Positions 1 to 12,067 of a DNA stretch of 64,000 bases are shown one piece after another; within the stretch, counting starts at the first letter, position 1, and each line of letters opens with the position of its first letter. Position numbers and translations under genes: made by a program. This DNA comes from Pseudomonas sp. 10S4 (GTDB taxonomy: Bacteria > Pseudomonadota > Gammaproteobacteria > Pseudomonadales > Pseudomonadaceae): NCBI RefSeq assembly GCF_034344865.1, contig NZ_CP133774.1, positions 4,898,001 to 4,962,000 on the forward strand, written 5' to 3'. A model generated the notes under the pieces. That model saw only the letters and a program-made list of their open reading frames with translations. It was not told where the DNA came from and did not search any database.

Positions 1-920
1 GCAGGCTCGTTGGGGCCATCCGGGAGGACATCGAGGCGCCGGCCCTGGTCACCAGCCTCAGCCTGCGACAGGCCTACCCGCGCCTGCTGCGCGTGGAGCT
101 CACGCCTGCTGAGGAACACTACAGCGGACACTACGTGACACGCTGGCTTGCCAGGGCCGCGAGTGGGGTCGCCAACGGGCGTTGCCCATTGCCGGAGCAA
201 TGGGCTCCCGGTGTTCTGCAGCCATGGTTGCAGGGCCAGCACGTGGCGTCCAACCAGTCACTGGAACAGGATGAAGAGCTGCCATCGCGCGAGGACGTGG
301 TGGCCGATATCCTCTCCCTTGCGCCGTTGACGATGATCGACGGTGCCTGGCTGGCGGGATTCGCCCATCCGGCGGTGGCCTCCACCGCGTACGGCAGCCG
401 ACTGTTCGAAACGCTTTTCGATGAGCTGGGCAACGGCATCGAGGCTCAGAACCATCCCGTCATCTACCGCCATCTGCTCAAGGCGATACATGGTGAGTTG
501 CCAGCCACCGCCGACCCCGGCTACGCCAATGCCGCCTGCTTCAACGACGAAGACTTCGAACTGCCGGTGTTCTGGTTGTCGATCAGACGATATTCCCAAA
601 CCTACTGCCCGGAGATCCTCGGGTTGAACCTGGCGATGGAGCTGTCCGGGGTCGGTGGCGGCTATCGGCGTACCCACAAGGCCTTGGTTGCCTATGGCTA
701 TCCGACGATGTTCGTCGACCTGCACAACTCCATCGACAACATATCCACCGGGCATACGGCATGGGCTGCCGCGAGCCTGGATGCCTACCTCAGCGCATTT
801 CCTCGAAGTGATCGTGACGAAATGTGGGCGCGGGTCCGTACCGGATTCGTCGCGCTCAATCCACCCAGGGAGCAAACCATGCTGGACAAGTTTCGCAAGA
901 AAGTGAGGGCGCTGCTATGA
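1..920 (+). CDS. Haem-oxygenase-like diiron oxidase (iron-containing redox enzyme family), 5'-partial
   Basis: The reading frame is open from base 3 with no stop, so the gene starts left of the window; the GTG at 93 is probably internal. The visible protein is all-helical in character. It carries the family signatures DELGNG followed by NHPVIYR (Glu and His ligands) in the middle, and DLHNSIDN followed by GHTAW near the C-terminus (His, Asp, His ligands). Family members (SznF central domain, UndA, CADD types) use a diiron centre to oxidise amino acids or fatty acids, including N-oxygenation. The stop overlaps the start of the carbamoyltransferase gene (ATGA), so the two are coupled in one operon. 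Family assignment is fairly secure; substrate is unknown. Confidence 0.75.
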   Translation, partial: RLVGAIREDIEAPALVTSLSLRQAYPRLLRVELTPAEEHYSGHYVTRWLARAASGVANGRCPLPEQWAPGVLQPWLQGQHVASNQSLEQDEELPSREDVVADILSLAPLTMIDGAWLAGFAHPAVASTAYGSRLFETLFDELGNGIEAQNHPVIYRHLLKAIHGELPATADPGYANAACFNDEDFELPVFWLSIRRYSQTYCPEILGLNLAMELSGVGGGYRRTHKALVAYGYPTMFVDLHNSIDNISTGHTAWAAASLDAYLSAFPRSDRDEMWARVRTGFVALNPPREQTMLDKFRKKVRALL

Positions 921-2758
921 CGTACACGCTTGGCATCTCGGCCTTCTATCACGACAGTGCGGCCACCTTGGTAATAGACGGCAAGATCGTTGCCGCCGCC
1001 CAGGAAGAACGCTTCAGTCGGGTCCGCCATGACCCGGGGTTTCCACGCCAGGCCATCGAGTACGTCCTGGTGCACGCGGGCATCAAATTGGCCGACGTCG
1101 ACCATGTCGCCTATTACGAAGATCCGGCGCTCAAATTCCGCCGTGTGCTCTCGACAGCCGTCGTGGCGGGGCTTTCAGCCGTGCGCACCTATGCGCCGGC
1201 ACTGGGTGACTGGCTGTCGACCAAGCGGCGGATGGACCGTGAGGTTGTACGTCATCTGAAAGCGATGGGCGACCGGGACGGTCGTCAGGTCGAAGTGCAT
1301 GGTCACCACGAATCCCACGCCTCTTCGGCGTTCTTTCCCAGTCCGTTTGAGAGCGCCGCAATCCTGTGCATCGACAGTGTCGGTGAATGGGCGACGACGA
1401 CCCTCTGGCACGGCAAGGCAGACGGCATCAAGCTGGTCGCGGAGTTGTCCTTCCCCCATTCGCTGGGCCTGCTCTATTCGGCGTTCACCTACTTCTGCGG
1501 TTTCAAGGTGGACTCCGGCGAATACAAGCTCATGGGGCTAGCGCCCTACGGCAAGACGACCTATGTCGACACGATTCTCTCGAATCTGATCGATGTGAAG
1601 CCCGACGGCAGTTTCAGGCTCGACTGGACCAAGTTCGAGTTCATCAAAGGCGAAGTGATGACGGGCAAGGCCTTCGAGCAACTGTTCGGTGGACCCCGGC
1701 GCTTGTCCGAGGCGCCACTGACCGAGCGCGAGTTCGACCTGGCGGCATCGGTGCAGAAAGTCACGGAAATAGTGGTGTCGCGCCTGGCCAGGACTGCCCG
1801 TGAACTGACAGGCGAGACATCGCTGTGCATGGCCGGGGGCGTCGCCCTCAACTGCGTGGCCAATGGCGTGATCTCCCGTGAGCGAACCTTCGACAGGCTG
1901 TGGGTGCAACCGGCGGCGGGCGATGCAGGTGGTTCCCTGGGTGCCGCGCTGCTGACCGACCGCAAATGCCGTGGGGTGACCCGCCGCGAACTGCCCGCTG
2001 GTGTCCTCGATGGCATGAGCGGAGCCTTGCTCGGCCCGGAATACAGTGAGGAACAGATCAGGGACGAACTGGAAGCCTGCGGCGCCGTTTTCCACAGGCT
2101 TTCACAGGAAGAGGTCGACCGCCGGGTGATCACCAGCATCGAGGACGGCGGGGTGATCGGCTGGTTCCAGGGGCGGATGGAGTTCGGCCCACGCTCGCTG
2201 GGCGGCCGTTCGATCCTCGGAGATCCGCGCCGCGCGGACACCCAGACGACCATGAACCTGCGCATCAAGTTTCGCGAATCCTTCCGCCCTTTCGCGCCTG
2301 TGGTGCTTGAGGAACAAGCGTCGGACTACTTCGACATTGTCGAGGAAAGCCCCTACATGCTGGTGGTCTCGCCGGTGGCTGAGGCCATTCGCAGGGTGAT
2401 CCCACAGGAACAGGCGCAGCTGACCGGCATCGACCTGCTCAAGGTGGCGCGCAGCAATTTGCCGGCGATTACCCATGTGGACTTCTCGGCCAGGGTGCAG
2501 ACCGTGGACCGGGAGCGCAACCCGCGGTTCCGCGCGCTGCTTGAGCGCTTCTACCAGCGTTCCGGGTGTCCCGTATTGGTCAACACCTCGTTCAACGTGC
2601 GTGGCGAGCCGATCGTGAACACGCCATTCGAAGCCTATCGCTGCTTCATGCGCACCAACATCGATGTGCTGGCGATCGGCGATTTCTACCTGGACAAGTC
2701 GGAACAGCCCCAGTTCGAGGAAGCCGTCGACTGGCGCGAGACCGTGCCGTTGGACTGA
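917..2758 (+). CDS. NodU/CmcH-family O-carbamoyltransferase
   Basis: I chose ATG 917, which overlaps the previous stop, over an upstream in-frame GTG at 824; this gives 613 residues, the usual family length. The N-terminus has the ASKHA-like start (LGISAFYHDSAATL) and a His-rich GHHESHASSAFF motif at about residues 129-140. The C-terminal part has FGPRSLGGRSILGDPR and NTSFNVRGEPIVNTP, typical of the YrdC-like carbamoyladenylate half. Known family members (NodU, CmcH, TobZ, NovN) transfer carbamoyl from carbamoyl phosphate, through carbamoyl-AMP, to a hydroxyl group of a small molecule. With oxidase, dioxygenase and ligase neighbours it probably carbamoylates a hydroxylated or N-hydroxylated intermediate. 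The acceptor is unknown. Confidence 0.88.
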   Translation: MTYTLGISAFYHDSAATLVIDGKIVAAAQEERFSRVRHDPGFPRQAIEYVLVHAGIKLADVDHVAYYEDPALKFRRVLSTAVVAGLSAVRTYAPALGDWLSTKRRMDREVVRHLKAMGDRDGRQVEVHGHHESHASSAFFPSPFESAAILCIDSVGEWATTTLWHGKADGIKLVAELSFPHSLGLLYSAFTYFCGFKVDSGEYKLMGLAPYGKTTYVDTILSNLIDVKPDGSFRLDWTKFEFIKGEVMTGKAFEQLFGGPRRLSEAPLTEREFDLAASVQKVTEIVVSRLARTARELTGETSLCMAGGVALNCVANGVISRERTFDRLWVQPAAGDAGGSLGAALLTDRKCRGVTRRELPAGVLDGMSGALLGPEYSEEQIRDELEACGAVFHRLSQEEVDRRVITSIEDGGVIGWFQGRMEFGPRSLGGRSILGDPRRADTQTTMNLRIKFRESFRPFAPVVLEEQASDYFDIVEESPYMLVVSPVAEAIRRVIPQEQAQLTGIDLLKVARSNLPAITHVDFSARVQTVDRERNPRFRALLERFYQRSGCPVLVNTSFNVRGEPIVNTPFEAYRCFMRTNIDVLAIGDFYLDKSEQPQFEEAVDWRETVPLD

Positions 2759-2802
2759 TGGACTGATGGACTGATCATTTCATTCACTAGGGAAGGTGCA
2801 CC

Positions 2803-2919
2803 ATGGATTACGTTCTGCTCTACCTGATCCTGCCGCTGGGGATGTTTATCCGTCGAACCCGCGCGTTCGCCCACCGGCCGGATCCCAAGGTCAGCTCATA
2901 CTTGAACCGCAAATCATGA
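2803..2919 (+). CDS. Small 38-residue protein inside the biosynthetic operon
   Basis: An ATG at 2803 follows a good ribosome binding site (GGGAAGG, 2790-2796) and opens a 38-codon frame whose TGA overlaps the dioxygenase ATG at 2916 (ATGA). The protein starts with a hydrophobic stretch (MDYVLLYLILPLGMFI, about residues 1-16), followed by a basic, Arg-rich tail ending in NRKS. That layout suggests a single membrane-anchoring helix with a cytoplasmic positive tail. Position, RBS and stop/start overlap all argue that it is translated. I do not recognise the family. It could be a membrane tether for the enzymes, a transporter accessory peptide or a substrate-carrier peptide; the first is the simplest reading. 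Confidence 0.6.
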   Translation: MDYVLLYLILPLGMFIRRTRAFAHRPDPKVSSYLNRKS

Positions 2920-3872
2920 GCCTCATGGCCATAGATGTTCAGCAGGCTTCGATGGTCCAGGTCATGATCATCGATTCGCCCGACCTGAGCGGGCTGGAGG
3001 GCTGTCGCGCGAAGTTGGCCGAAATGCCGCACCGCGCCGACAGCGTGGGAGAAATCGGCGGGGACTGGCTGAGCACCGTGTTGGGCAGCGACAACGTCGA
3101 GGCGATCCGTGCGTTCCCCGCCAGCCCGTTCAAGGCACTGCTGGTGCGGGGTATCTCGCTCTCCACGGATGTCGCGACGCCGTGCAATGGCTTCCTGCCC
3201 AATGCCCAGTGCATCCTGGACTTCGACCTGCTGCAGTTCGGCATGCTGCAGCTGCTGGGTGTCAGGCCGCATGCGGTCGAGTACGAAAACCTCGGCAAGC
3301 TGGTCAGGAACGTGGTGCCGGTGCCGGAGGCTGCGGGCACCACGAGTTCCTGGGGCGCGGACGTGGAGTTTTTCTGGCACACCGACAATCCCAACTGGCC
3401 CTTCGACGACCAGGGCCGGGATGTCACGACATCCGTGCCGAACTTCCTGGCCTTTGCCGCCGTGCGCAATTTCGAAGGTGCCTCCACCGACATCGTCTGT
3501 GTGGATCATATCCTCTCACAGCTGCCCGCCTGGGCAACGGCCCAGTTGCAGAAGCCTGCCTACACCTTCGGGGCTCCTGCTTCCAACGAGGGCTTCGATG
3601 GCCAGCAGAAGGTGCTGCCGATCCTGGAGCAGGGCGATAGCGGTTATCGCCTGCGCTTCGACGACGGCATCGTGGCGGCGCTCGACCCGGACAGCAAAGA
3701 GGCCCTCGGGCTCCTGTGCCAATGCCTGCGCGATGCCCAGGGTATCGAAGTGGTGATGCAACCGGGTGACTTCTTCATTTTCAAGAACGCCCGCGTGCTG
3801 CATCGACGCAAGGCGTTCCAACCTATGCCCAACAGCAAGGCGCGCTGGCTGCGCAGGGTGTACTGCAGTTGA
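2916..3872 (+). CDS. TauD/clavaminate synthase-like Fe(II)/2-oxoglutarate dioxygenase
   Basis: Start ATG 2916 overlaps the small-protein stop; ATG 2925 is an alternative, and a longer frame from GTG 2796 would run through the small ORF and is rejected. The 318-residue protein has the 2-His-1-carboxylate triad: HTD at residues 155-157 (FFWHTDN) and His296 (VLHRRKAF), with a conserved Arg close to it. The overall pattern is nearer the VioC/AsnO/clavaminate synthase branch, which hydroxylates or desaturates amino-acid side chains, than taurine dioxygenase itself. In this operon it probably hydroxylates the amino-acid precursor, perhaps providing the oxygen later carbamoylated. Substrate unknown. 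Confidence 0.82.
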   Translation: MSLMAIDVQQASMVQVMIIDSPDLSGLEGCRAKLAEMPHRADSVGEIGGDWLSTVLGSDNVEAIRAFPASPFKALLVRGISLSTDVATPCNGFLPNAQCILDFDLLQFGMLQLLGVRPHAVEYENLGKLVRNVVPVPEAAGTTSSWGADVEFFWHTDNPNWPFDDQGRDVTTSVPNFLAFAAVRNFEGASTDIVCVDHILSQLPAWATAQLQKPAYTFGAPASNEGFDGQQKVLPILEQGDSGYRLRFDDGIVAALDPDSKEALGLLCQCLRDAQGIEVVMQPGDFFIFKNARVLHRRKAFQPMPNSKARWLRRVYCS

Positions 3873-3915
3873 ACCTTTTCTTCAAAATCCATCACGATAA
3901 ATAGGGAACTCACGC

Positions 3916-6366
3916 ATGAACAAACGTATCGCAGTAATCGGTGGCCGCCCCGCGCCCATTCACGGAGCCAAGGAACTGGGCATCGACGTAGTGCTGGTGC
4001 ACCAGGAGGGTGACTACGAGCAGGAGATCCACGCTCATTGCGAACAGGTGGTGCATGCCAGGATCGACGACGCTGAGGCGATCATCAAGGTGCTCGAACC
4101 CCTGCATCGCGAACGTCCGTTCGATCGCATCATCACCACCACCGAAGTGGCGGGCGAGTCGACGGGCAAGGTGGTCGATCATTTCGGCCTCACCGGAGTT
4201 TCCTACAAGACCGCGCGCCTGCTCAAGGACAAGGTGGCTATGCGCGAACTGCTGGCCAAGCATGACCTGAGCCCGGTTGCCTATCGCCATGTCACCAGCG
4301 CGCAGATCGCCATCGCGTTCGTCAAGGAGCATGGCAAGTCGGTGCTCAAGCCGGCCGAAGGCGTCGCCAGTCTGCATATCCATCCCTGCGATGACGAAGC
4401 CTCCGCCACCAAGGCCTGGCAAGCGCTGCAGGACGCCGACGTCAAGCACATCATCATCGAGGAATACCTGGAGGGGCCGGTCGTCAGCGTGGACTCCTTC
4501 TCCTTCAAGCGCCGCCACCTGCCGATCGGCTACTCCCAGTACCGCATGAACGACAAGTACGTCGAGTGGGAGGTCAGCACGCCAAGCACCGATGCCAAGA
4601 AATGGCTGAAAGAGCTGAAGGAAATGACCTGCCGCCTGCTCGACGCCGTGGAGCTGGAGGAAGGCCCTTCCCACAGCGAGTTCGTGCTGACGCCAAAAGG
4701 CCCTCGGGTACTGGAGTCCCACGCCCGCCTGGCCGGTTCGGGTGCCCCGGAATTGGTGAGACGCGCGTTCGGCCTCGACCTGAACCGGATGTTCCTGACC
4801 GTGCCCCTGGGTATCGACACCCTGCCGGAAGTGTCGCCAGAGCCGAAGGCCGGTGCGGCGATCCAGTTCTTCGTGCCGACACCTGGCAAAGTGATGAAGG
4901 TCGAGCTCGACCTCAAGCCTGACGTCGACGTGCGTCACACCAAGCAGGGCGAGACGCCACTGGTGTTCCTGCCGTTCCTGTTCGAGCTGGGCCAGGCCGA
5001 GCGTGCCGTGGTCATCCAGAAGCACGAGGGCGACCAGATTCCACCTCTCGATACCGTTGCCGACTGCGTCTCGGGGTATGTCCTGGCAACAGGCGTCTCG
5101 CGTGAGGACGCGGTCCGGATCGGCGACGAACTCGGTGGAGGCCGTTCATTTCATCGTGGAGCCCAAGGCATGAGCTACCTGCTCTGCTTGCATCGTTGGG
5201 TCGGCTCCCAAGCCCTCTACGACCGATACGAGTTGCCTGCGGGGATGATGATTCGGGCGATCTGCACGCCCGAATCCATCGCATCGCTGCCGAGTGAGCG
5301 CCTGGCGTCGAGTTCGACGCTGGCCTCGCTGGACGATACCGGGGCGGTCATGGCCGAGGTCGAACGCCTGGTCGCGCAGCACGGTGTACCGGCGCTGGTG
5401 GTCGCCCTCAATGAGGGCGACCTGCTCAATGCCGCGTCGATTCGCGAGCGATGGAAGGTGCCGGGAGACCGGGTTGCCTGGACCGAGCGGTTTCGCGACA
5501 AGCTCACCATGCTGGACATCGCGGGTCGGCAGACGTCGATCAGCGTGCTGCCGGCGGTGAACGCCGATTCCCGTGAAGCCGTGGAGCAACTGGCGACCGA
5601 GCATGGCTATCCGCTGGTGCTCAAACCACGCTATGGTACGGCGAGTCGTGGCGTGAAGATCCTTCGCGGTCCTGGGGATCTTGATCCGTTGCAACAGGCC
5701 GTGGAGCCCATGATGGTCCAGGTCTACTGCGCCGCCCCGATCCTGCACGTAGACGGTTGGTGGGATGGGCAGCGGATCGTGGTGGTCACCGCGTCGCGCT
5801 ATGTGAACAGTTGTGCCGATTTCGGTCCGGACAGCCCGCTGGGCAGTATCGAGCTGGAGGAGGGCGAGGACGAGCAGCGGATTGCGCGGCGCGTCGAGCA
5901 GTTGCTGGCGGCCTTCGCGCCGGAGCGGGAAATCGTCTTCCACCTCGAACTGTTCGACCGGGGTGACGAGTTGCTGTTCCTTGAGATTGGTGCCCGTGTC
6001 GGCGGTGCTGAAATTCCGTTCCTCTGGCGGGAGGTGAGGGATATCGACCTGCTGGGGATTGCCTGGGAACTCCAGACAGGGGCGTCCACCCGCTACAGGG
6101 ACCTTGCACGCAGCCGCAGCAATGAGGGCAGACCCTTGCGTCGTGAACGTGGGGCCTGGGTGATCGCCCGGCGCGGCAGTTCGCCGCACGATGGGCTGGG
6201 AACCCTGTACTGGGCCCAACCACAGGACCTTGAGCACTCCGCCAGTGGTGTCTATGAGGGCTCCAGGACCCGCTTGCGCCTGCGCAGCTTCGATGGTCCC
6301 GCGCTGGTACACGATGTGGGGAAGGTCTTCGAACAGTTATCCGAACTATGGAGTGTTCAATCGTGA
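3916..6366 (+). CDS. Double-domain ATP-grasp ligase (816 residues)
   Basis: Two ATP-grasp modules are fused. The first (about residues 1-420) has an N-terminal Rossmann-like start, an ATP-lysine segment (SVLKPAEG), a central EEYLEGPVVSVDSF loop and a metal-binding ELxxRxxG-like segment (ESHARLAGSG). The second (about residues 430-816) repeats this with PLVLKPRYGTASRG and EIGARVGGAEIPF. ATP-grasp enzymes activate a carboxylate as acylphosphate and join it to an amine, so two successive amide bonds (dipeptide or peptide-carrier ligation) are plausible. A weak RBS (GGGAA, 3903-3907) precedes the ATG. The 43-base gap to the dioxygenase is the longest inside the operon. The fold is confident, the partners are not known. 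Confidence 0.83.
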   Translation: MNKRIAVIGGRPAPIHGAKELGIDVVLVHQEGDYEQEIHAHCEQVVHARIDDAEAIIKVLEPLHRERPFDRIITTTEVAGESTGKVVDHFGLTGVSYKTARLLKDKVAMRELLAKHDLSPVAYRHVTSAQIAIAFVKEHGKSVLKPAEGVASLHIHPCDDEASATKAWQALQDADVKHIIIEEYLEGPVVSVDSFSFKRRHLPIGYSQYRMNDKYVEWEVSTPSTDAKKWLKELKEMTCRLLDAVELEEGPSHSEFVLTPKGPRVLESHARLAGSGAPELVRRAFGLDLNRMFLTVPLGIDTLPEVSPEPKAGAAIQFFVPTPGKVMKVELDLKPDVDVRHTKQGETPLVFLPFLFELGQAERAVVIQKHEGDQIPPLDTVADCVSGYVLATGVSREDAVRIGDELGGGRSFHRGAQGMSYLLCLHRWVGSQALYDRYELPAGMMIRAICTPESIASLPSERLASSSTLASLDDTGAVMAEVERLVAQHGVPALVVALNEGDLLNAASIRERWKVPGDRVAWTERFRDKLTMLDIAGRQTSISVLPAVNADSREAVEQLATEHGYPLVLKPRYGTASRGVKILRGPGDLDPLQQAVEPMMVQVYCAAPILHVDGWWDGQRIVVVTASRYVNSCADFGPDSPLGSIELEEGEDEQRIARRVEQLLAAFAPEREIVFHLELFDRGDELLFLEIGARVGGAEIPFLWREVRDIDLLGIAWELQTGASTRYRDLARSRSNEGRPLRRERGAWVIARRGSSPHDGLGTLYWAQPQDLEHSASGVYEGSRTRLRLRSFDGPALVHDVGKVFEQLSELWSVQS

Positions 6367-6491
6367 GAACAGCAGTTGTAACGGATGCCAACGCTGGCAT
6401 TGACGAGGCGTACGGCCGCACCTTGGCCCGTCGTGGCGGGCGCGAACAGCTGCCGGCCACCCATTTTTCTGTACACGAAGGAGCACGCTGA
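6363..6491 (+). pseudogene. 42-codon coupled ORF resembling a decayed SDR N-terminus
   Basis: GTG 6363 overlaps the ligase TGA (GTGA) and the frame ends at 6491, overlapping the exporter ATG by one base, so it fills the gap exactly. The first 24 residues (TAVVTDANAGIDEAYGRTL and on) match the dinucleotide-binding start of short-chain dehydrogenases, TGxxxGIG, but with Gly to Asp changes at two of the three key glycines. The rest (GREQLPATHFSVHEGAR) has no SDR character. I read it as a remnant of a deleted SDR gene that still serves translational coupling. A functional short peptide is possible but less likely. Confidence 0.45.
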
Positions 6492-7126
6492 TGGTTTCGC
6501 CGGAAAACCTGGCCGGTGTGGCCATCATTGCCCTGGGCATGGTGCTGACACCTGGACCGAACATGATCTACCTGACCTCGCGGGTGATTTCCCAAGGGCG
6601 ACTGGCGGGGATGATTTCCTTGGCCGGCGTGGCCCTGGGCTTCGTGTGCTACCTGGTGGCTTCGGGACTGGGGCTGGCGGCCTTGTTCAAGGCCGTGCCG
6701 GTGGCCTACGACGTCGTCAAGATCGCGGGCGCATTCTATCTGGGCTACCTGGCCTGGAACATGCTCAAGCCCAGGGGCGCCTCCCCTTCGAAGGCGCGCG
6801 AACTGCCGCCTCACTCGCCGAAGCGGCTGTTCACCATGGGGCTGGTGACAAACCTGCTGAATCCGAAGATTGCGCTTATGTATTCCGCGCTGATTCCCCA
6901 GTTCATCGATCCTTCCGCGGGATCGACCCTACAGCAGTTCATTCAGCTGGGGCTGGTACAGATCGTCATTGCCGTCACCGTGAACGGTATCATCGTCCTG
7001 GCCGCCTCCCGGGTCAGCAGCTACCTGACCAAGCGCCCCACTGCCATGCGCACCCAGCGCTGGGTTTCCGGAACTGTACTTGCTGTGTTTGCGGTCGATA
7101 TCCTACTGCGCAAGCCGATGACCTGA
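6491..7126 (+). CDS. LysE/RhtB-family amino-acid exporter
   Basis: The 211-residue protein has the family start (MVSPENLAGVAIIALGMVLTPGPNM in outline, with the LTPGPN motif at about residues 19-24) and about six hydrophobic segments; the conserved NPK motif (LLNPKIALMYSALIPQF region) lies near residue 125. LysE/RhtB proteins export amino acids and analogues through the inner membrane by proton exchange. It is the last gene of the operon, overlapping the short relic ORF by one base. Such exporters commonly end amino-acid antimetabolite clusters, where they provide product export and self-protection. That role is inferred from position. Confidence 0.9.
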   Translation: MVSPENLAGVAIIALGMVLTPGPNMIYLTSRVISQGRLAGMISLAGVALGFVCYLVASGLGLAALFKAVPVAYDVVKIAGAFYLGYLAWNMLKPRGASPSKARELPPHSPKRLFTMGLVTNLLNPKIALMYSALIPQFIDPSAGSTLQQFIQLGLVQIVIAVTVNGIIVLAASRVSSYLTKRPTAMRTQRWVSGTVLAVFAVDILLRKPMT

Positions 7127-7181
7127 TAGAGGAGCGGGCCTTGCGCAGGTCCTGGAGCTGTACAGGGAACGGCTTTAACAC

Positions 7182-7206
7182 AAAAAGTCCCGCGTTGAGG
7201 TGGGAC
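7182..7206 (-). terminator. Rho-independent terminator of a truncated minus-strand gene
   Basis: On the minus strand the sequence reads GTCCC, ACCTCAACGC, GGGAC, then TTTTTGTGTT. The stem is 7187-7191 with 7202-7206 and the T-run lies at 7182-7186. It sits just behind the stop codon of the truncated gene at 7244 and shows where the old host transcript ended. It may also mark the convergent end of the biosynthetic operon. Confidence 0.6.
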
Positions 7207-7243
7207 CTGCGTCATTAAGAACGCAGCAATTACCAACAAAAGC

Positions 7244-7303
7244 CTAACGCATCGGAACCGGTTGTGGCTGGTAGTAGCCCGGTGGCGGTGCCTGGTAATA
7301 ACC
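7244..7303 (-). pseudogene. 3' end of a truncated Pro/Tyr-rich envelope protein gene
   Basis: A minus-strand frame ends in GYYQAPPPGYYQPQPVPMR and TAG (7244), directly ahead of a good terminator. This Pro/Tyr/Gln-rich tail is typical of small Pseudomonas envelope or glycine-zipper proteins. Upstream (to the right) the frame loses this character within a few codons and no start or signal peptide follows, so only the 3' end survives. It marks the left edge of the inserted or rearranged block. Confidence 0.5.
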
Positions 7304-7407
7304 GGACCATGAACATTGGGCTGAGCATCCAGGTCGCGGCGCTGCTGATGCTAACGGTTCCTGCGGCCTGGTTGACCATCCCTTGGGTAATGGGCGCTCA
7401 GGCGCTG

Positions 7408-7842
7408 TCAGGGATCGCCAAAGACCTGAACAAGATGAGTGCCAAAAGCTCCATCAAACTCCTGGTGTCCGATGGGCAACAGGGCCGGTTTTATCAATGG
7501 ATAGTCGGTCATTCCTTGCAGGTGGTGGCAAAAGAAGATGTTGCCGCCCACCGTCAGGCTGGATTCTTCCATGAGCTTTTGCAGATGCTCGATGGCGGTG
7601 CCGCTGAACTCCGTAAAGTCTTCGGTGCCAGCAAGGTATTTGCTGAGCCAGCCGCTGAAGCGGGGCGCGCCGGATTCGGCATGGAAGAAGCCCCAGCCTT
7701 TTCCAGTCTTGGCGTTATAGCTTTCGTTGAACTGTTGAACCAGCTCGTCGCGGGCTTGGCTCTCGACGAGTTCGCCGGCGCTACGGTGCAGAATATAGGG
7801 GCAAGCGATCGTAAGCATTTCAATTTCATGGCATCCCCCCAA
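7408..7842 (-). pseudogene. Nucleoid-associated protein NdpA/YejK fragment
   Basis: Residues from about 18 to 114 match NdpA: NESYNAKTGKGWGFFH, ESGAPRFSGWL, DFTEFSGTAIEHLQKLMEES, and QGMTDY. A full NdpA/YejK is about 330 residues; here similarity stops after MTDY and the frame ends 30 residues later at 7408. The first 17 residues also do not resemble the family. Both ends therefore look lost or replaced. NdpA is a host and phage-borne nucleoid protein, and this copy fits cargo of the prophage block. It may still be expressed as a 144-residue protein, but is unlikely to work. Confidence 0.6.
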
Positions 7843-7938
7843 AATTAAGTGCGAACTCTACCATTCGTGGCGCACGCCCACCATTGACGAGGAGGGCGGG
7901 CAGAACGAAAAAGCCCGTCGCGAGCTGAGTCGTAGATT

Positions 7939-8142
7939 TTAATGGAGGACTCTTCGGCTCTCCCCAATCCTGACCCGATCAAGCGCACGATTTAATGCAT
8001 CCAAGGCATCAAGTAGGGCTTTCGCCTCAGATTCCCGGCCATCACCCCAAAGGCGTTCAGCCATTTTGTTAAGGGCCTGGATAGAGCGCTCAATGTCAGC
8101 AGCGGTCGTTGCTATTTTGCTTTCCGGCTGTTTCTTCGGCAT
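7939..8142 (-). CDS. Small conserved-looking hypothetical protein (67 residues)
   Basis: The frame MPKKQPESKIATTAADIERSI and on encodes a helical, charged, possibly coiled-coil protein (AERLWGDGRESEAKALLDALDALNRALDRV). It lies on the same strand as the CI repressor and about 40 bases downstream of it. The composition is like many small phage-borne proteins. No function recognised. The helical amphipathic pattern and codon use make it more credible than the overlapping frames. Confidence 0.5.
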   Translation of the reverse strand: MPKKQPESKIATTAADIERSIQALNKMAERLWGDGRESEAKALLDALDALNRALDRVRIGESRRVLH

Positions 8143-8182
8143 TCAGTAACCCTTCTGCAGGGCATTGCTTTGTCGTTCAATT

Positions 8183-8944
8183 TTAGCGCGCAAACATGCC
8201 CCACCAGAAAACGTGGCCCAAGATTGCGATCTGCTGATCCTGGATCTCGGCAAAGGTGTAATCCTCGTCCGGGTGCTCATCGCGGTTGAAGCTGCGCAGA
8301 CGGATGCCGCTCGGCAGTCTGTAGAGTTGCTTCACGCGGAGTTGGCCGTGGTGGGTGATCGCATACATGTCGCCGTCGACGATGTCGCCCAGGGAGCTCT
8401 TGCCGACGTTGATACCTACGGTCGCGCCATCGCGCAGTACGGGCAGCATGCTGTTGCCGCTGACGAGCACGCACTTCGCGTTGCTGAACTGAACGTTGTT
8501 GTGACGAAGGTCTTTCTTGAAGAAGCGCAGCCTGGCGCTGTCGCTTTCCTCAATCACGAATCGGCCGGAGCCGGCGGCCAGTTCCACTTCGCGCAGGAAA
8601 GGGACGTAGACCTCGTCATCGTCGAGAGGGGTGTTGTCGTCCCAAGGCTGGATATCCGAGAGATGGACATCAGCTCGGATAGTTCGATCAAAGCCTTTCT
8701 CGGCTTCTGATGCCGAAAGAATATTGCCCATCCGATCGCTTAAGCCCCAGTGAGAAGGCTTCACAACGTCCGAGAAATACTCGATCAGCTCCATGAGCTT
8801 CGACTTATCGATTCGGCCCGTCTTCACCCAGCCTTGGACGGACGGACCCGCCACGCCGAAATCTTCGGCGAGCTTCTTCTTTGTAACGCGTTTGGCGACC
8901 CGAGCTTGCTCGATGGCTGCGCCTAATTCAGGACCTGTAAGCAT
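8183..8944 (-). CDS. CI-like phage repressor with S24 (LexA-type) autoprotease domain
   Basis: The 253-residue protein has an N-terminal helix-turn-helix (KKLAEDFGVAGPSVQGWVKTGRI, residues 24-45) and a C-terminal peptidase S24 domain. The self-cleavage site is Ala124-Gly125 (ELAAGSG), the catalytic Ser165 lies in GNSMLPVLRDG, and Lys205 in QLRVKQLYR. All three are present, so RecA-triggered self-cleavage should be intact. It is divergent from the cro-like gene at 9040, as in lambdoid immunity regions. Although the phage around it is gutted, the repressor looks functional and may give immunity to related phages. Confidence 0.88.
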   Translation of the reverse strand: MLTGPELGAAIEQARVAKRVTKKKLAEDFGVAGPSVQGWVKTGRIDKSKLMELIEYFSDVVKPSHWGLSDRMGNILSASEAEKGFDRTIRADVHLSDIQPWDDNTPLDDDEVYVPFLREVELAAGSGRFVIEESDSARLRFFKKDLRHNNVQFSNAKCVLVSGNSMLPVLRDGATVGINVGKSSLGDIVDGDMYAITHHGQLRVKQLYRLPSGIRLRSFNRDEHPDEDYTFAEIQDQQIAILGHVFWWGMFAR

Positions 8945-9039
8945 TGCCTAATTAAGCCTATTCGTTAGCCAAGTAGGCAATGGCTTGTCGGTAATTAGTT
9001 AATGACTTATATTTGGCGCATAACAAGCCGGAGAACCCC
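8945..9039. promoter_or_regulatory. Divergent CI/Cro operator-promoter region
   Basis: The 95-base gap between the divergent repressor and cro starts is AT-rich compared with its neighbours. It holds related segments such as GCCTAATTAAGCC (8946-8958), TATTCGTTAGCC and GTAATTAGTTAATGA, which could be operators. I cannot assign exact operator symmetry by eye. The last bases give the cro RBS (GGAGAA, 9030-9035). Confidence 0.45.
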
Positions 9040-9363
9040 ATGACACCAGCAGAAGCGGTTCGAAAGGCAACCGGGATTTTGGGCGGCCAAACAGCGCTGG
9101 CCAGCCGTCTTGATGTTCGAACTCCAACTGTTAGCCAGTGGTGTTCGGGAGGTCGGCCGGTCCCGGTGGCAAGAGCGATTCAGGTCGAAGCGCTCACAAC
9201 TGAGCGGGATTTTTGTACTCGAGGAATACCAATGACTTACAACACCGGCAACGCGCTGGGATCGAGCGACGTTCTCGACCTGAATGACAACGCGGTCAAT
9301 TTGGACTGGTTCGCCAACGGTCCCGCCGCGTTCTACCCCGACCGATTCGGTACATTCCGCTAA
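9040..9363 (+). CDS. Cro/YdaS-like repressor fused by deletion to a tail-fibre start
   Basis: ATG 9040 has the RBS GGAGAA. Residues 1-50 are a YdaS/Cro-like helix-turn-helix (AVRKATGILGGQTALASRL, then TVSQWCSGGRPVPVARAI). The usual C-terminus is missing; after QVEALT the frame runs into sequence that includes a second RBS and start (GAGGAATACCAATG) and then the N-terminus of a tail fibre (MTYNTGNALGSSD), ending at the TAA at 9361. The fusion is 107 residues. A deletion that removed the whole early, replication and morphogenesis part of the phage explains the joint. The DNA-binding part may still fold. Confidence 0.65.
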   Translation: MTPAEAVRKATGILGGQTALASRLDVRTPTVSQWCSGGRPVPVARAIQVEALTTERDFCTRGIPMTYNTGNALGSSDVLDLNDNAVNLDWFANGPAAFYPDRFGTFR

Positions 9364-11592
9364 TCCGTCGCGGGAATGAATGCCGAGTTCGTGGCGGCTC
9401 AGGTTTCAAGCGCTAACACCTTCATCTCCACACAAAACGCCAAGCAGGAAGCCTTCGACGCTGCGCAGCTTGCCAGGGCAAACGAATACACCACCGACAA
9501 GAGCGATCGAGATACTGGGTTCGCCGCCGATCAGGCAGAGCGAGTCGTCGAGTTCTGCGAGTTTCTGGAGTCCAGTGGCTACGAGGCGCCAGTCGATTAT
9601 GTAGCAGGTCTTGGCATCACTCGCCCGACGCAGACCGTCCGCTTCGGTGGCGAACTTTACCGAGCGAAGGGTGCAAGCCTGCCGTTCACCACCACCACTT
9701 GGCCGGCGGACTCGGCCAAGTTCTTTGCTATTGGTGATGCCGCCCTGCGCCAAGAGCTGGCTTCTACTGATTCGATCAAAGGCGCCACCCTGGTAGCCCA
9801 TTCGACCGTTCACGTCGCCTCCATTATGGATTTGCAGACAGCCAAACGCGATCCAGCGTGGGCGGTTCAGACCTCGGCGTATCGCCCGGGCGTGTTCGCT
9901 CTTGGTGCGCCCCGCAGCACCAACGGAGGTGGGCGTTTTATTTGGATGGAAAGCGTCCCGAAAACTCAACACAACGGCGGAACGGTTATCAGCCCTAGTG
10001 TTCCTTGGAGTGGTGAACAGAACACCCTTGCGGCATTCCTCAAGGCAACTGGCGAAACCAGTCCAGGCGGCAATGGCTGCTTTGTTTTGGTCTTGCAGGG
10101 CGAACTATATGCCGAGCAGTTCGGCGCAATTGGCGATAACGCCTCAGATAACAGTGCGAGTTTCCAAGCGGCAACCAACTACCTGCAATCGGTATCTACG
10201 GGCGGGAAGCTACGCATTGGCCTTGGTCAGTTTCAACTGTCCACCGCCATCAAGAACGATCGGTCGACTAACGCAGCCGTTGGACGGGTTTCCTACGTGG
10301 GGGCGGACGAAAACGGTACGCAGCTGCTGTACACCGGGTCGGGCAACTGCTTCGAGATCCTGAATAGCCACGCTGTTGGAGTCGAGAACTCGACTTCTTG
10401 TCAGATAGTTTCTGACATGTCGATATTCAAGGTTGGATCTGCAGGTGCGACCGTCGGTATCGTGGTGAATCTTGGAGCGTGGCCAAAGTTTGAGCGACTA
10501 AACATTCAAGGGTTTGATTACGGAATGTATCTACAGGACGTAGATCATCCATATTTCAGCACGGTCAATCTTCGCTTCAACAACAAGGGCATATATGCGC
10601 AACGAGCAATACCTGCCAGAGCGCTTAGCACCGCACCAAACAACTATACGTTTGTTTCGTGCAGTATCAGCAATAACGGCACGTATGGGATGTATATCGT
10701 AGGTGGATCAGCTATTAACTGGTATGGCGGATCTTGCGAGTATAACGGGCATGTTATTGGTTCGGCCGGATTTGGGGTTCAACTGGAAGACTGCGGGTAC
10801 GAAGGAGGGGTGGGGGCCAACTTTAATAATGTGTATTTCGAGGCTAACAACGGCATAGCCGATGTTATCCTTAAGACACAGAATGTCGACAGCGGTGCCG
10901 TGCTTGGCGCACTCCACAAAATCAGCTCGGACTTCCATCGAAATCTGACAGGCTCGAACATAAACAACATTCTGTGCGTTTTCGGGCCGCCCGGGTCAGT
11001 GGGCACGCAGGTTCTTAATGTGCATGGATCGGCCTTTAAGTCATTCGGTGGCTATGTGCCGAATGCGGCAACCAAGAACATCTCATTCTCTGACACTGTC
11101 GCAAGTGCCGGCAACTTCTTTGATGCTGGCGCGTTCTACGCAGACCCAGTAGAGCGTCCTGTATTTGCCCAAACGCATAACAAATATTATGCGACCGTTT
11201 CCAAGAGTGCTAATCAAGCAGTGCCTACTGCGGTCTGGACCAAACTATTACTTGACGCCGTACCCAATTTCTTTCTATTGGCTCCATCATTGTCGACTCA
11301 TGACATTTCGATTCCAGAAACCGCGCTATTCAACGTGTCTGCTACGATTAGTTTTAGTGGGAACGTTGCTGGTCTGCGCGGTGTTCGGTTTAAAATTGGA
11401 AGCCTTGTTGTCGCTTCTGCTAGTACCTCTGCCGTGGCGGACAATGTTGTATCTCTTGATATGACTCGGTGTATGTCCATAGGGAATACTCTTAGCGTGG
11501 AAGTGTTGCAGGCGTCCGGCGGAAGTCTCGACGTGCAAGGAGTTAATATTGGGAATACGCTTATAAACATAAATAAAGTAGTTGGGCAATAA
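9232..11592 (+). pseudogene. Phage tail fibre/tailspike gene with internal stop
   Basis: ATG 9232 with RBS GAGGAA starts MTYNTGNALGSSDVLDLNDN, a common Pseudomonas phage tail-fibre beginning, and reaches DRFGTFR. Then a TAA (9361-9363) interrupts, and the same frame continues SVAGMNAEFVAAQ to 11592. A Lys codon (AAA or AAG) changed to TAA would explain it. The downstream 738-residue part, from ATG 9376, has a helical neck, a right-handed beta-helix-like middle (GAIGDNASDNSASFQAA is a pectate-lyase-type start; repeated NNxG turns follow) and a C-terminal beta-rich domain. Its later third has weaker codon bias and lower GC. Translation could restart at 9376 but would lack the virion-attachment end. 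Confidence 0.75.
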
Positions 11593-11662
11593 TGGCGAGC
11601 TATTAACGAAAGCCTCTCCGTCGATAGCGCTATTTCCGCATGGAGAAAAGTGTAATCATCGA

Positions 11663-12067
11663 CAAGACACACGGGGCCGCAACCGCAACCCCGGAAACAT
11701 TTACTACAACCCAGCCAATCAGTGGCAGGGGTAGCTCAAGCCAGACCCCGCTATCGAGAAGCGATTTGCCAGATTCGACGTACCCGAGAACGGTATCCGA
11801 GCCCTGGGCATGACGTACCAGCGTAAGCGCGGGCTGAAGACGGTGAAGGCGATTATCAGCCGGTGGGCACCCTCGGCAGAGAACGACACCGACGCTTATG
11901 TGCGTGCCGTCGAGGCGAACACTGGCACCAAGCCTGGTGCCCAGATCGATCTGTCTATTCCGGCGGTGATGCAGGGCTTCGTGAAAGCGATCATTCACCA
12001 CGAGAACGCCGGGTATGCCTACCCCGAAACGGTTCTGACTGAAGGCGTGCGGCGGGCGCTGGCATGA
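11663..12067 (+). pseudogene. Phage virion protein (RGxRNxNPGN family) with internal TAG
   Basis: One frame reads DTRGRNRNPGNIYYNPANQWQG, stops at TAG 11732-11734, and continues LKPDPAIEKRFARFDVPENGIRALGMTYQRKRG to 12067. The RGxRNNNPGNI start and GIRALxxxxxTYQRKRGLxT segment are known from Pseudomonas phage structural proteins. A Gln codon CAG changed to TAG fits. At the 5' end ACACAC seems to carry an extra dinucleotide that shifts the start codon out of frame. Only the last 85 residues, from ATG 11810, remain as an open frame. It lies ahead of the lysis-gene stub, as in intact phages. Confidence 0.6.

Follow-up and report, generated by a model that had tools for sequence, protein, structure and literature searches.

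The window, which is the whole stretch of 64,000 nucleotides analysed here, opens inside an operon whose start lies 2.4 kb to its left. In their complete order the genes encode a CgnD-like SGNH hydrolase, a 31-residue peptide, a tandem-HDO protein, a carbamoyltransferase and a 38-residue protein, followed by a 2-oxoglutarate dioxygenase, a pair of ATP-grasp ligases that this assembly shows as a fusion, and a LysE exporter (Table 1). A preliminary description of the window had read six plus-strand genes here and had placed the left part of the cluster outside the window. Both statements held: Pfam matches were obtained for the 3' part of the HDO gene, the carbamoyltransferase, the dioxygenase, the ATP-grasp protein and LysE, each in the enzyme class that had been named, the 38-codon ORF is the sixth gene, and leftward extension uncovered a 372-residue SGNH hydrolase ORF, the peptide gene and codons 1-376 of the 681-codon HDO ORF. 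The statement that five of six junctions overlap was mistaken; two of five do so, namely that between the HDO gene and the carbamoyltransferase and that between the small ORF and the dioxygenase, each over 4 bases, and the remaining gaps measure 44, 43 and 124 bases. The cluster is bracketed by two direct repeats, which are 98.9% identical (blastn).

Table 1. Features of the operon and its flanking repeats. Positions are those of the window, or of the contig where prefixed.
Feature	Position	Strand	Remarks
Direct repeat, left copy, 1,023 bp	G000:C1:4893497-4894519		
CgnD/gvgA-like SGNH hydrolase ORF	G000:C1:4895580-4896698		left of window
31-aa gvgB-like peptide gene	C1:4896715-4896810		MLKRIRKALGGLFKRKKKAKKKNNSSIYPMY; left of window
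gvgC-like HDO gene, 3' part	1..920	+	whole ORF G000:C1:4896875-4898920; PF14518
gvgF/NodU/CmcH-type O-carbamoyltransferase, 613 aa	917..2758	+	PF02543 + PF16861
Small hydrophobic protein, 38 aa	2803..2919	+	gvgG-like by position and character
Fe(II)/2-oxoglutarate dioxygenase, clavaminate synthase / VioC group, 318 aa	2916..3872	+	PF02668
ATP-grasp ORF, 816 aa	3916..6366	+	two ligases fused (residues about 1-406, 407-816)
Short-chain dehydrogenase (SDR) gene remnant	6348..6458	+	tblastn with L027 SDR
LysE-family exporter, 211 aa	6491..7126	+	PF01810
Direct repeat, right copy, 1,023 bp	7949..8971		S24/CI-type repressor gene (PF00717)

This set is not a chance grouping, because 6 of the 297 other Pseudomonas genomes searched carry it with the gene order unchanged, three of them with an added SDR gene, and because its core is present in most of 80 named loci. 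A search for co-occurrence, suggested in the preliminary description, found the set to be widespread, with clusters in Pseudomonadota, Actinomycetes, Nostoc and Planctomycetes in which the core genes are kept and the accessory genes differ across phyla; no known product was found for the dioxygenase/ATP-grasp variant. Across the six relatives the LysE exporter is 84-94% identical and the 38-residue hydrophobic protein 49-95%, and a small hydrophobic ORF also follows the carbamoyltransferase in many other loci. The copy in the window strain carries two frame changes with respect to the relatives compared. The “double ATP-grasp” of the preliminary description is a single ORF in this strain, but two adjacent genes in 6 of 6 relatives. 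The SDR remnant matches the L027 SDR at 62% over the first 37 residues (E 1e-8), and the whole gene (PF00106) is found in some relatives. A phage origin of the cluster was rejected, the viral contigs being devoid of any HDO relative. Distant ATP-grasp pairs in other Pseudomonas (L032-L037) were set aside because the other cluster genes had no blastp match there.

The best solved relatives of the carbamoyltransferase are the novobiocin carbamoyltransferase, GdmN and TobZ, and the top PDB matches of the dioxygenase are clavaminate synthase and arginine beta-hydroxylases. For the ATP-grasp ligases the comparison was made with the separate genes of L044 in place of the fused ORF; the first matched the L-amino acid ligases BL00235 (E 1e-15) and BacD (about 1e-7 to 4e-8), a likeness that is nevertheless distant, and the second gave a weak match to PurT.

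Judged by homology and, for the tiny fifth gene, by position, the first five genes of the operon correspond to gvgA-B-C-F-G. With the gvg cluster of Pseudomonas fluorescens WH6, which specifies 4-formylaminooxyvinylglycine (FVG), the operon shares the SGNH hydrolase, the Lys-rich peptide, the HDO protein, the carbamoyltransferase and LysE, and its small hydrophobic protein occupies the place of gvgG; this comparison was made with five Pseudomonas loci that carry the gvg gene set (L145-L149), which stood in for the sequence of WH6. Homologues of gvgA, gvgB, gvgC and gvgF were found in the order seen in those five loci, so that the operon is gvg-like; the preliminary description had rightly noted a resemblance to vinylglycine clusters. 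It is not a complete FVG cluster. With proteins of L146 and L147 as tblastn queries, the gvgH aminotransferase, the gvgI formyltransferase and the gvgR regulator were all without a match at E 1e-5, both in L004 (19 kb) and in positions 1-12000 of the window, and the earlier remark that an aminotransferase and a formyltransferase are missing was therefore correct. By Pfam and tblastn, a regulator, a class III aminotransferase and a formyltransferase (truncated in L149, where the contig stops) are present in all five gvg-type loci, and in each of the five a small hydrophobic ORF follows the carbamoyltransferase. Four of the five, L145 being the exception, also encode a protein that we take, following the gvg papers, to be an amidinotransferase, its Pfam match being only a sub-threshold one to arginine deiminase (PF02274). 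The dioxygenase and both ATP-grasp ligases are additions compared with gvg, as is the SDR in those relatives that have it. The genes gvgA, B, C and F form the core of at least eight gvg-like variants (PMC8064604), in a paper whose main text does not mention ATP-grasp, dioxygenase, ligase, RiPP or crocagin and which was alone, in the literature searched, in linking the cluster to aldgamycin genes; no report in that literature joins crocagin with vinylglycine. In the FVG cluster, gvgA, gvgC, gvgG and the gene for the Lys-rich GvgB are essential and their roles are unexplained (PMC8067088).

When the profile of the SGNH hydrolase was compared with the PDB, the sole match was CgnD (E 3e-89), and the Ser-Asp-His triad is present, as in the CgnD family of leader peptidases. 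CgnD cuts the Lys/Arg-rich leader off crocagin before the IYW core and releases the encoded core, with no appended residue (PMC10070186). The crocagin cluster (cgn) of Chondromyces crocatus provides a second point of comparison, made by sequence for CgnD and by description for its other members. In addition to the hydrolase, the two clusters share a carbamoyltransferase, an iron oxygenase and a short precursor-like peptide with a basic leader and an Ile-Tyr pair opening the C-terminal core. They differ in that the crocagin core is IYW and that here is IYPMx, in that CgnC, the oxygenase of crocagin, depends on 2-oxoglutarate and its counterpart in the core here is a tandem HDO, and in the CgnL methyltransferase, which was not seen here; of the ORFs given an identity in the operon, none was recognised as a peptide binder of the CgnB/CgnE type.

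What is new here is the peptide. It is Lys/Arg-rich and ends in IYPMY, and a scan detected it once per locus in 73 of the 80 related loci, with the tail IYP[ML]x; the tail of the L147 peptide ends in MF. Its short length, basic leader and C-terminal core with a conserved Tyr agree with the description of the crocagin precursor (PMC10070186), although the Tyr-Trp core of crocagin is replaced by Ile-Tyr-Pro-Met/Leu-x. The peptide is present in 69 of 70 hydrolase-bearing loci, and L107 is a hydrolase locus in which none is recognisable. At four loci the peptide occurs but no hydrolase was detected: two of these (L052 and L099) lie on short contigs, a third (L100) is truncated on the left, and the fourth (L073) is uncut. 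In a search for HDO-less relatives of the hydrolase, 11 of 398 Pseudomonadota genomes had a match at E 1e-8; at one such locus, L182, a peptide-like ORF accompanies the hydrolase without a detectable HDO, at L183 and L184 no such peptide lies beside the hydrolase, and L185 and L186, where the hydrolase match is weak, had neither a tblastn match nor such a peptide. The role of the peptide might be purely structural, such as that of a basic anchor, to the membrane or to an enzyme, for the HDO protein and the carbamoyltransferase, with its tail docking in the former. The basic N-terminal part, the small hydrophobic partner protein encoded in the same operon, the conservative Met/Leu exchange and the variable last residue would all suit such a role, which we nevertheless judge very unlikely, since it leaves unexplained both the kinship of the neighbouring hydrolase with leader peptidases and the single hydrolase-peptide pair at L182.

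The HDO protein is a tandem-HDO protein of 700 residues, represented in this strain by an ORF of 681 codons, with a PF14518 match that spans residues 483-655. Since a comparison of its profile with PDB sequences gave no meaningful match, a predicted model of a near-identical protein was used. VIA alignments of this model point to two tandem HDO folds; Foldseek alone found nothing within an E-value limit of 0.001, its best hit being HrmI at 0.023. Six residues, E539, H549, E602, H639, D643 and H649, are invariant in 45 of 45 HDO sequences, and from motif and position we take these to be candidate metal ligands. In the N-terminal domain the fold is present but none of its Glu or His residues is shared by as many as 36 of the 45 sequences. 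The protein departs from RohS, HrmI and SznF both in the pairing of its folds and in the lack of a conserved Glu or His set in the first.

The preliminary description had reasoned that the product is an oxidised, O-carbamoylated amino acid or short peptide. The enzyme classes in that argument stand, but it did not take in the precursor-like peptide and the CgnD-like peptidase, which escaped it through their tiny size or their place beyond the left edge of the window, and with them the likely logic shifts to the modification of a ribosomal peptide. We hold with moderate confidence that gvg-like clusters encode RiPP pathways of the crocagin kind, the present one being a variant with a dioxygenase/ATP-grasp module. 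The starting material is probably a very small peptide made by the ribosome, the tail of which is turned into a small exported compound. The peptide as substrate, the site of cleavage, the order of steps and the class of product are inferred, as follows. The 31-residue precursor, with its basic leader and C-terminal core I-Y-P-M-Y, would be oxidised in the core by the tandem-HDO protein while still on the leader, the degenerate N-terminal domain probably holding the peptide and the C-terminal domain, with the candidate ligands, performing the chemistry. A hydroxyl would be capped by the carbamoyltransferase, and the SGNH hydrolase would remove the leader by a cut just before Ile. The released fragment might then be hydroxylated further by the dioxygenase and joined to one or more amino acids by the two ATP-grasp ligases, and LysE would export a small antimetabolite-like compound.

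Alternatively, as in pearlin-like pathways, a free amino acid might be added to a C-terminal handle on a carrier peptide and modified by the HDO protein and the carbamoyltransferase, after which the SGNH hydrolase would release it. Such peptides are described for the 3-thiaglutamate and ammosamide pathways, and a small amino-acid product (FVG), the LysE exporters, the ATP-grasp ligases and the fixed C-terminal motif would all fit. We regard this route as rather unlikely. The core has no evident ligase, and 50 of the 80 loci (five extra rows were left out of these module counts) lack a relative of the first ATP-grasp protein above 50% identity. A census of ORFs, which did not cover PEARL domains, revealed no other family in most loci, a weak argument given that its two largest groups were lumped together and include overlapping frames. 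Further, CgnD frees an encoded core and not an appended residue.

A regulatory or signal-making role for the peptide and hydrolase, with the exported product made from free amino acids as first proposed, is possible because knock-outs of gvgA and gvgC collapse transcription of the cluster. Together, the gvgA, gvgC and gvgR knock-outs alter 687 genes and the gvg operon is switched off (PMC8067088), and in vitro inhibition of CsrA by crocagin A has been reported (PMC10070186). However, a knock-out of the gvgH aminotransferase likewise reduces the cluster genes tested (PMC8067088), and therefore loss of product could explain the drop in transcription. This, with the maintenance of the core alongside different accessory genes across phyla, makes such a role quite improbable.

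The RiPP reading may be carried further, tentatively: in every gvg-like cluster, that of the herbicide FVG among them, the small amino-acid-like products would be made from an encoded residue of the ribosomal peptide, and the tandem HDO would be a novel type of RiPP enzyme. Such a residue could conceivably be the near-invariant Met, whose four-carbon skeleton is the same as that of vinylglycine, a suggestion we make with similar reserve. It is not obvious how FVG, with four carbons, would be a piece of IYPMF, and this counts against the RiPP reading. If the RiPP reading is right, clusters of Pseudomonadota, Actinomycetes, Nostoc and Planctomycetes join the RiPPs, HDO enzymes enter RiPP chemistry, and an unexplained bacterial herbicide pathway is tied to a known peptide-natural-product route. 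Once gvgA is recognised as coding for a leader peptidase of the crocagin type, and gvgB for a precursor-like peptide whose tail is fixed, their roles in FVG formation become directly testable.

The gvgB gene is present although missing from NCBI annotations (PMC8064604), and the IYP[ML]x tail offers a simple signature for locating such clusters. Among 298 Pseudomonas genomes, the DNA signature of the peptide marks exactly the 12 whose HDO cluster has this tail, and one extra stray match sits inside one of those 12. An extra motif match in G099 (L164) was rejected as due to chance, its frame being full of stops and not Lys-rich.

The genome that contains the window is a single contig of 7.27 Mb. 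The preliminary description had placed six plus-strand genes at positions 1 to 7126; these genes exist, but the operon is not whole within the window, its start lying further to the left. The overlap claimed for five of six junctions was not borne out, as genes overlap at two of the five junctions in the window.

Genes of the complete operon, in order (HDO, tandem haem-oxygenase-like oxidase; SDR, short-chain dehydrogenase)
Order	Feature	Size	Remark
1	SGNH hydrolase	372-aa ORF	
2	Precursor-like peptide	31 aa	
3	HDO	681-aa ORF	window strain
4	Carbamoyltransferase	613 aa	
5	Small protein	38 aa	
6	2-Oxoglutarate dioxygenase	318 aa	
7	ATP-grasp ORF	816 aa	
8	SDR remnant		before LysE
9	LysE exporter		last

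This gene set touches two published systems. According to PMC8067088, the 4-formylaminooxyvinylglycine (FVG) cluster encodes a lipase/esterase (gvgA), a Lys-rich product (gvgB), a haem-oxygenase 2 (gvgC), a carbamoyltransferase (gvgF) and a small ORF (gvgG), and each of these five genes is needed for the FVG phenotype; what the small ORFs do is termed unclear. PMC8064604 describes gvg-like clusters with a core of gvgA, B, C and F in at least eight variants, of which the great majority are uncharacterised; its main text mentions neither RiPPs nor crocagin. In the crocagin pathway, according to PMC10070186, CgnA is an 18-aa basic leader followed by IYW, CgnD frees the core and CgnI is a carbamoyltransferase; the term gvg does not occur there. 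The literature searched yielded no paper mentioning both crocagin and vinylglycine.

Judged from sequence, a crocagin-like RiPP route is the simplest account of the cluster: its peptide is basic and keeps an Ile-Tyr tail, it is tied to a hydrolase of the CgnD family at 69 of the 70 loci that have the hydrolase, and an oxygenase and a carbamoyltransferase lie beside it. In the window variant, the ATP-grasp ligases would probably extend the released piece with amino acids and LysE would probably export the extended product. That the encoded Met becomes vinylglycine is speculation from the carbon count only.

The distribution of the peptide was determined in named genomes, where an HDO scan gave 99 relatives, the best 80 being kept for locus counts. 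A six-frame scan of the entire fetched stretch of each locus, looking for reading frames rich in Lys/Arg with the ending [ILV]YP[MLIVA]x, found exactly one such peptide in 73 of the 80 loci. The tail Ile is preceded by Ser in 67 of these, Thr in four and Glu in two. Among the seven loci missed, L103, L105 and L111 are short stretches and the L113 tail reads IYRMF; L083, L085 and L107 have no peptide with a tail of the scanned form, and the first two of these also lack the hydrolase and carbamoyltransferase. A subfamily of loci (L101, L106, L108, L109, L110, L114, L117 and L150-L152) has a peptide with the tail SIYPLR, located after the hydrolase gene. The DNA signature [ST]IYPM[FHYL]-stop, which is blind to the IYPLR type, gave 13 matches spread over 12 of 298 whole genomes, and these are the 12 whose HDO clusters carry such a tail; the reversed pattern matched in none of the 298. 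The thirteenth match is a chance occurrence inside another frame. On an HDO tree of 83 rows, built by a quick method and with some long branches ("none" scored as a tail type, one row mislabelled), tail types require 9 changes, compared with a mean of 24.4 after shuffling, and none of 200 shuffles was as low. The tail codons differ by synonymous changes that leave the residues as they are, a rough result from nine codons only.

Among these best 80 of 99 HDO relatives, the nearest named relatives of the window cluster are Pseudomonas. Most loci are from Actinomycetes; Burkholderia, Pantoea, Dyella, Lonsdalea, Thalassobius, Nostoc, Planctomycetes and others also occur. The carbamoyltransferase is present in 74 loci and the hydrolase in 70. 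The first ATP-grasp gene (ATPg1, >50% identity) occurs in 30, the second (ATPg2) in 28 and the dioxygenase in 29, these three together in 27. At the thresholds used, no locus of the 80 has the dioxygenase without ATPg1, and one, L066, has ATPg1 without the dioxygenase. This pattern indicates that the dioxygenase/ATP-grasp module is largely one co-inherited unit, common to Pseudomonas, Reinekea and Actinomycetes. Among 298 Pseudomonas genomes, an ATP-grasp search found close relatives of both halves in six others, all six with the remaining cluster genes, including the peptide. An HDO search of the same number of genomes found full-length relatives in 15 genomes, comprising seven of window type, three of IYPLR type and five with the gvg gene set, all five with a GntR/aminotransferase regulator, a class III aminotransferase and a formyltransferase. 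Another Pseudomonas cluster (L032-L034, L037) carries two distantly related ATP-grasp genes separated by about 4 kb, with conserved genes between them.

At L182:8666-9822 (-) a CgnD/gvgA-like hydrolase, lying among genes that by eye resemble sugar biosynthesis, adjoins a small ORF ending DNYPMF; HDO and carbamoyltransferase were not detected at this locus. This one locus suggests that hydrolase and peptide together may form the basic unit; the pairing was not seen at L183 and L184, two other HDO-less hydrolase relatives. L181 has a hydrolase/dioxygenase/ATP-grasp set of window type together with an HDO nearer that of L088, a mixture that suggests exchange of modules; its peptide ends DSSIYPMF.

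In the six relatives compared first, the HDO starts at an ATG overlapping the peptide stop and the ATP-grasps are two separate genes; relative to these, length differences in the window-strain assembly, which may reflect sequencing errors or decay, shorten the HDO start and fuse the ATP-grasps. A database protein matching 678 of the 681 residues of the window-strain HDO has the full 703 residues, so close relatives do possess whole copies; a length of 681 aa is given in three Pseudomonas gingeri records. In G216, the other genome with this species label, neither an HDO match at E 1e-20 nor the tail pattern was found, and presence of the cluster therefore varies within the species.

The two copies of a direct repeat of 1,023 bp, 98.9% identical (window 7949-8971 and G000:C1:4893497-4894519), flank the cluster. 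The repeat encodes an S24/CI-type repressor and may be a trace of the way in which the cluster inserted. A transposase-like HTH gene lies with the repeat on the left side. Large ORFs flank the cluster on both sides (L004:3217-7170 and window 9376-11592), those tested having no Pfam match; on the left, two pairs of them overlap in different frames, as if frame-shifted.
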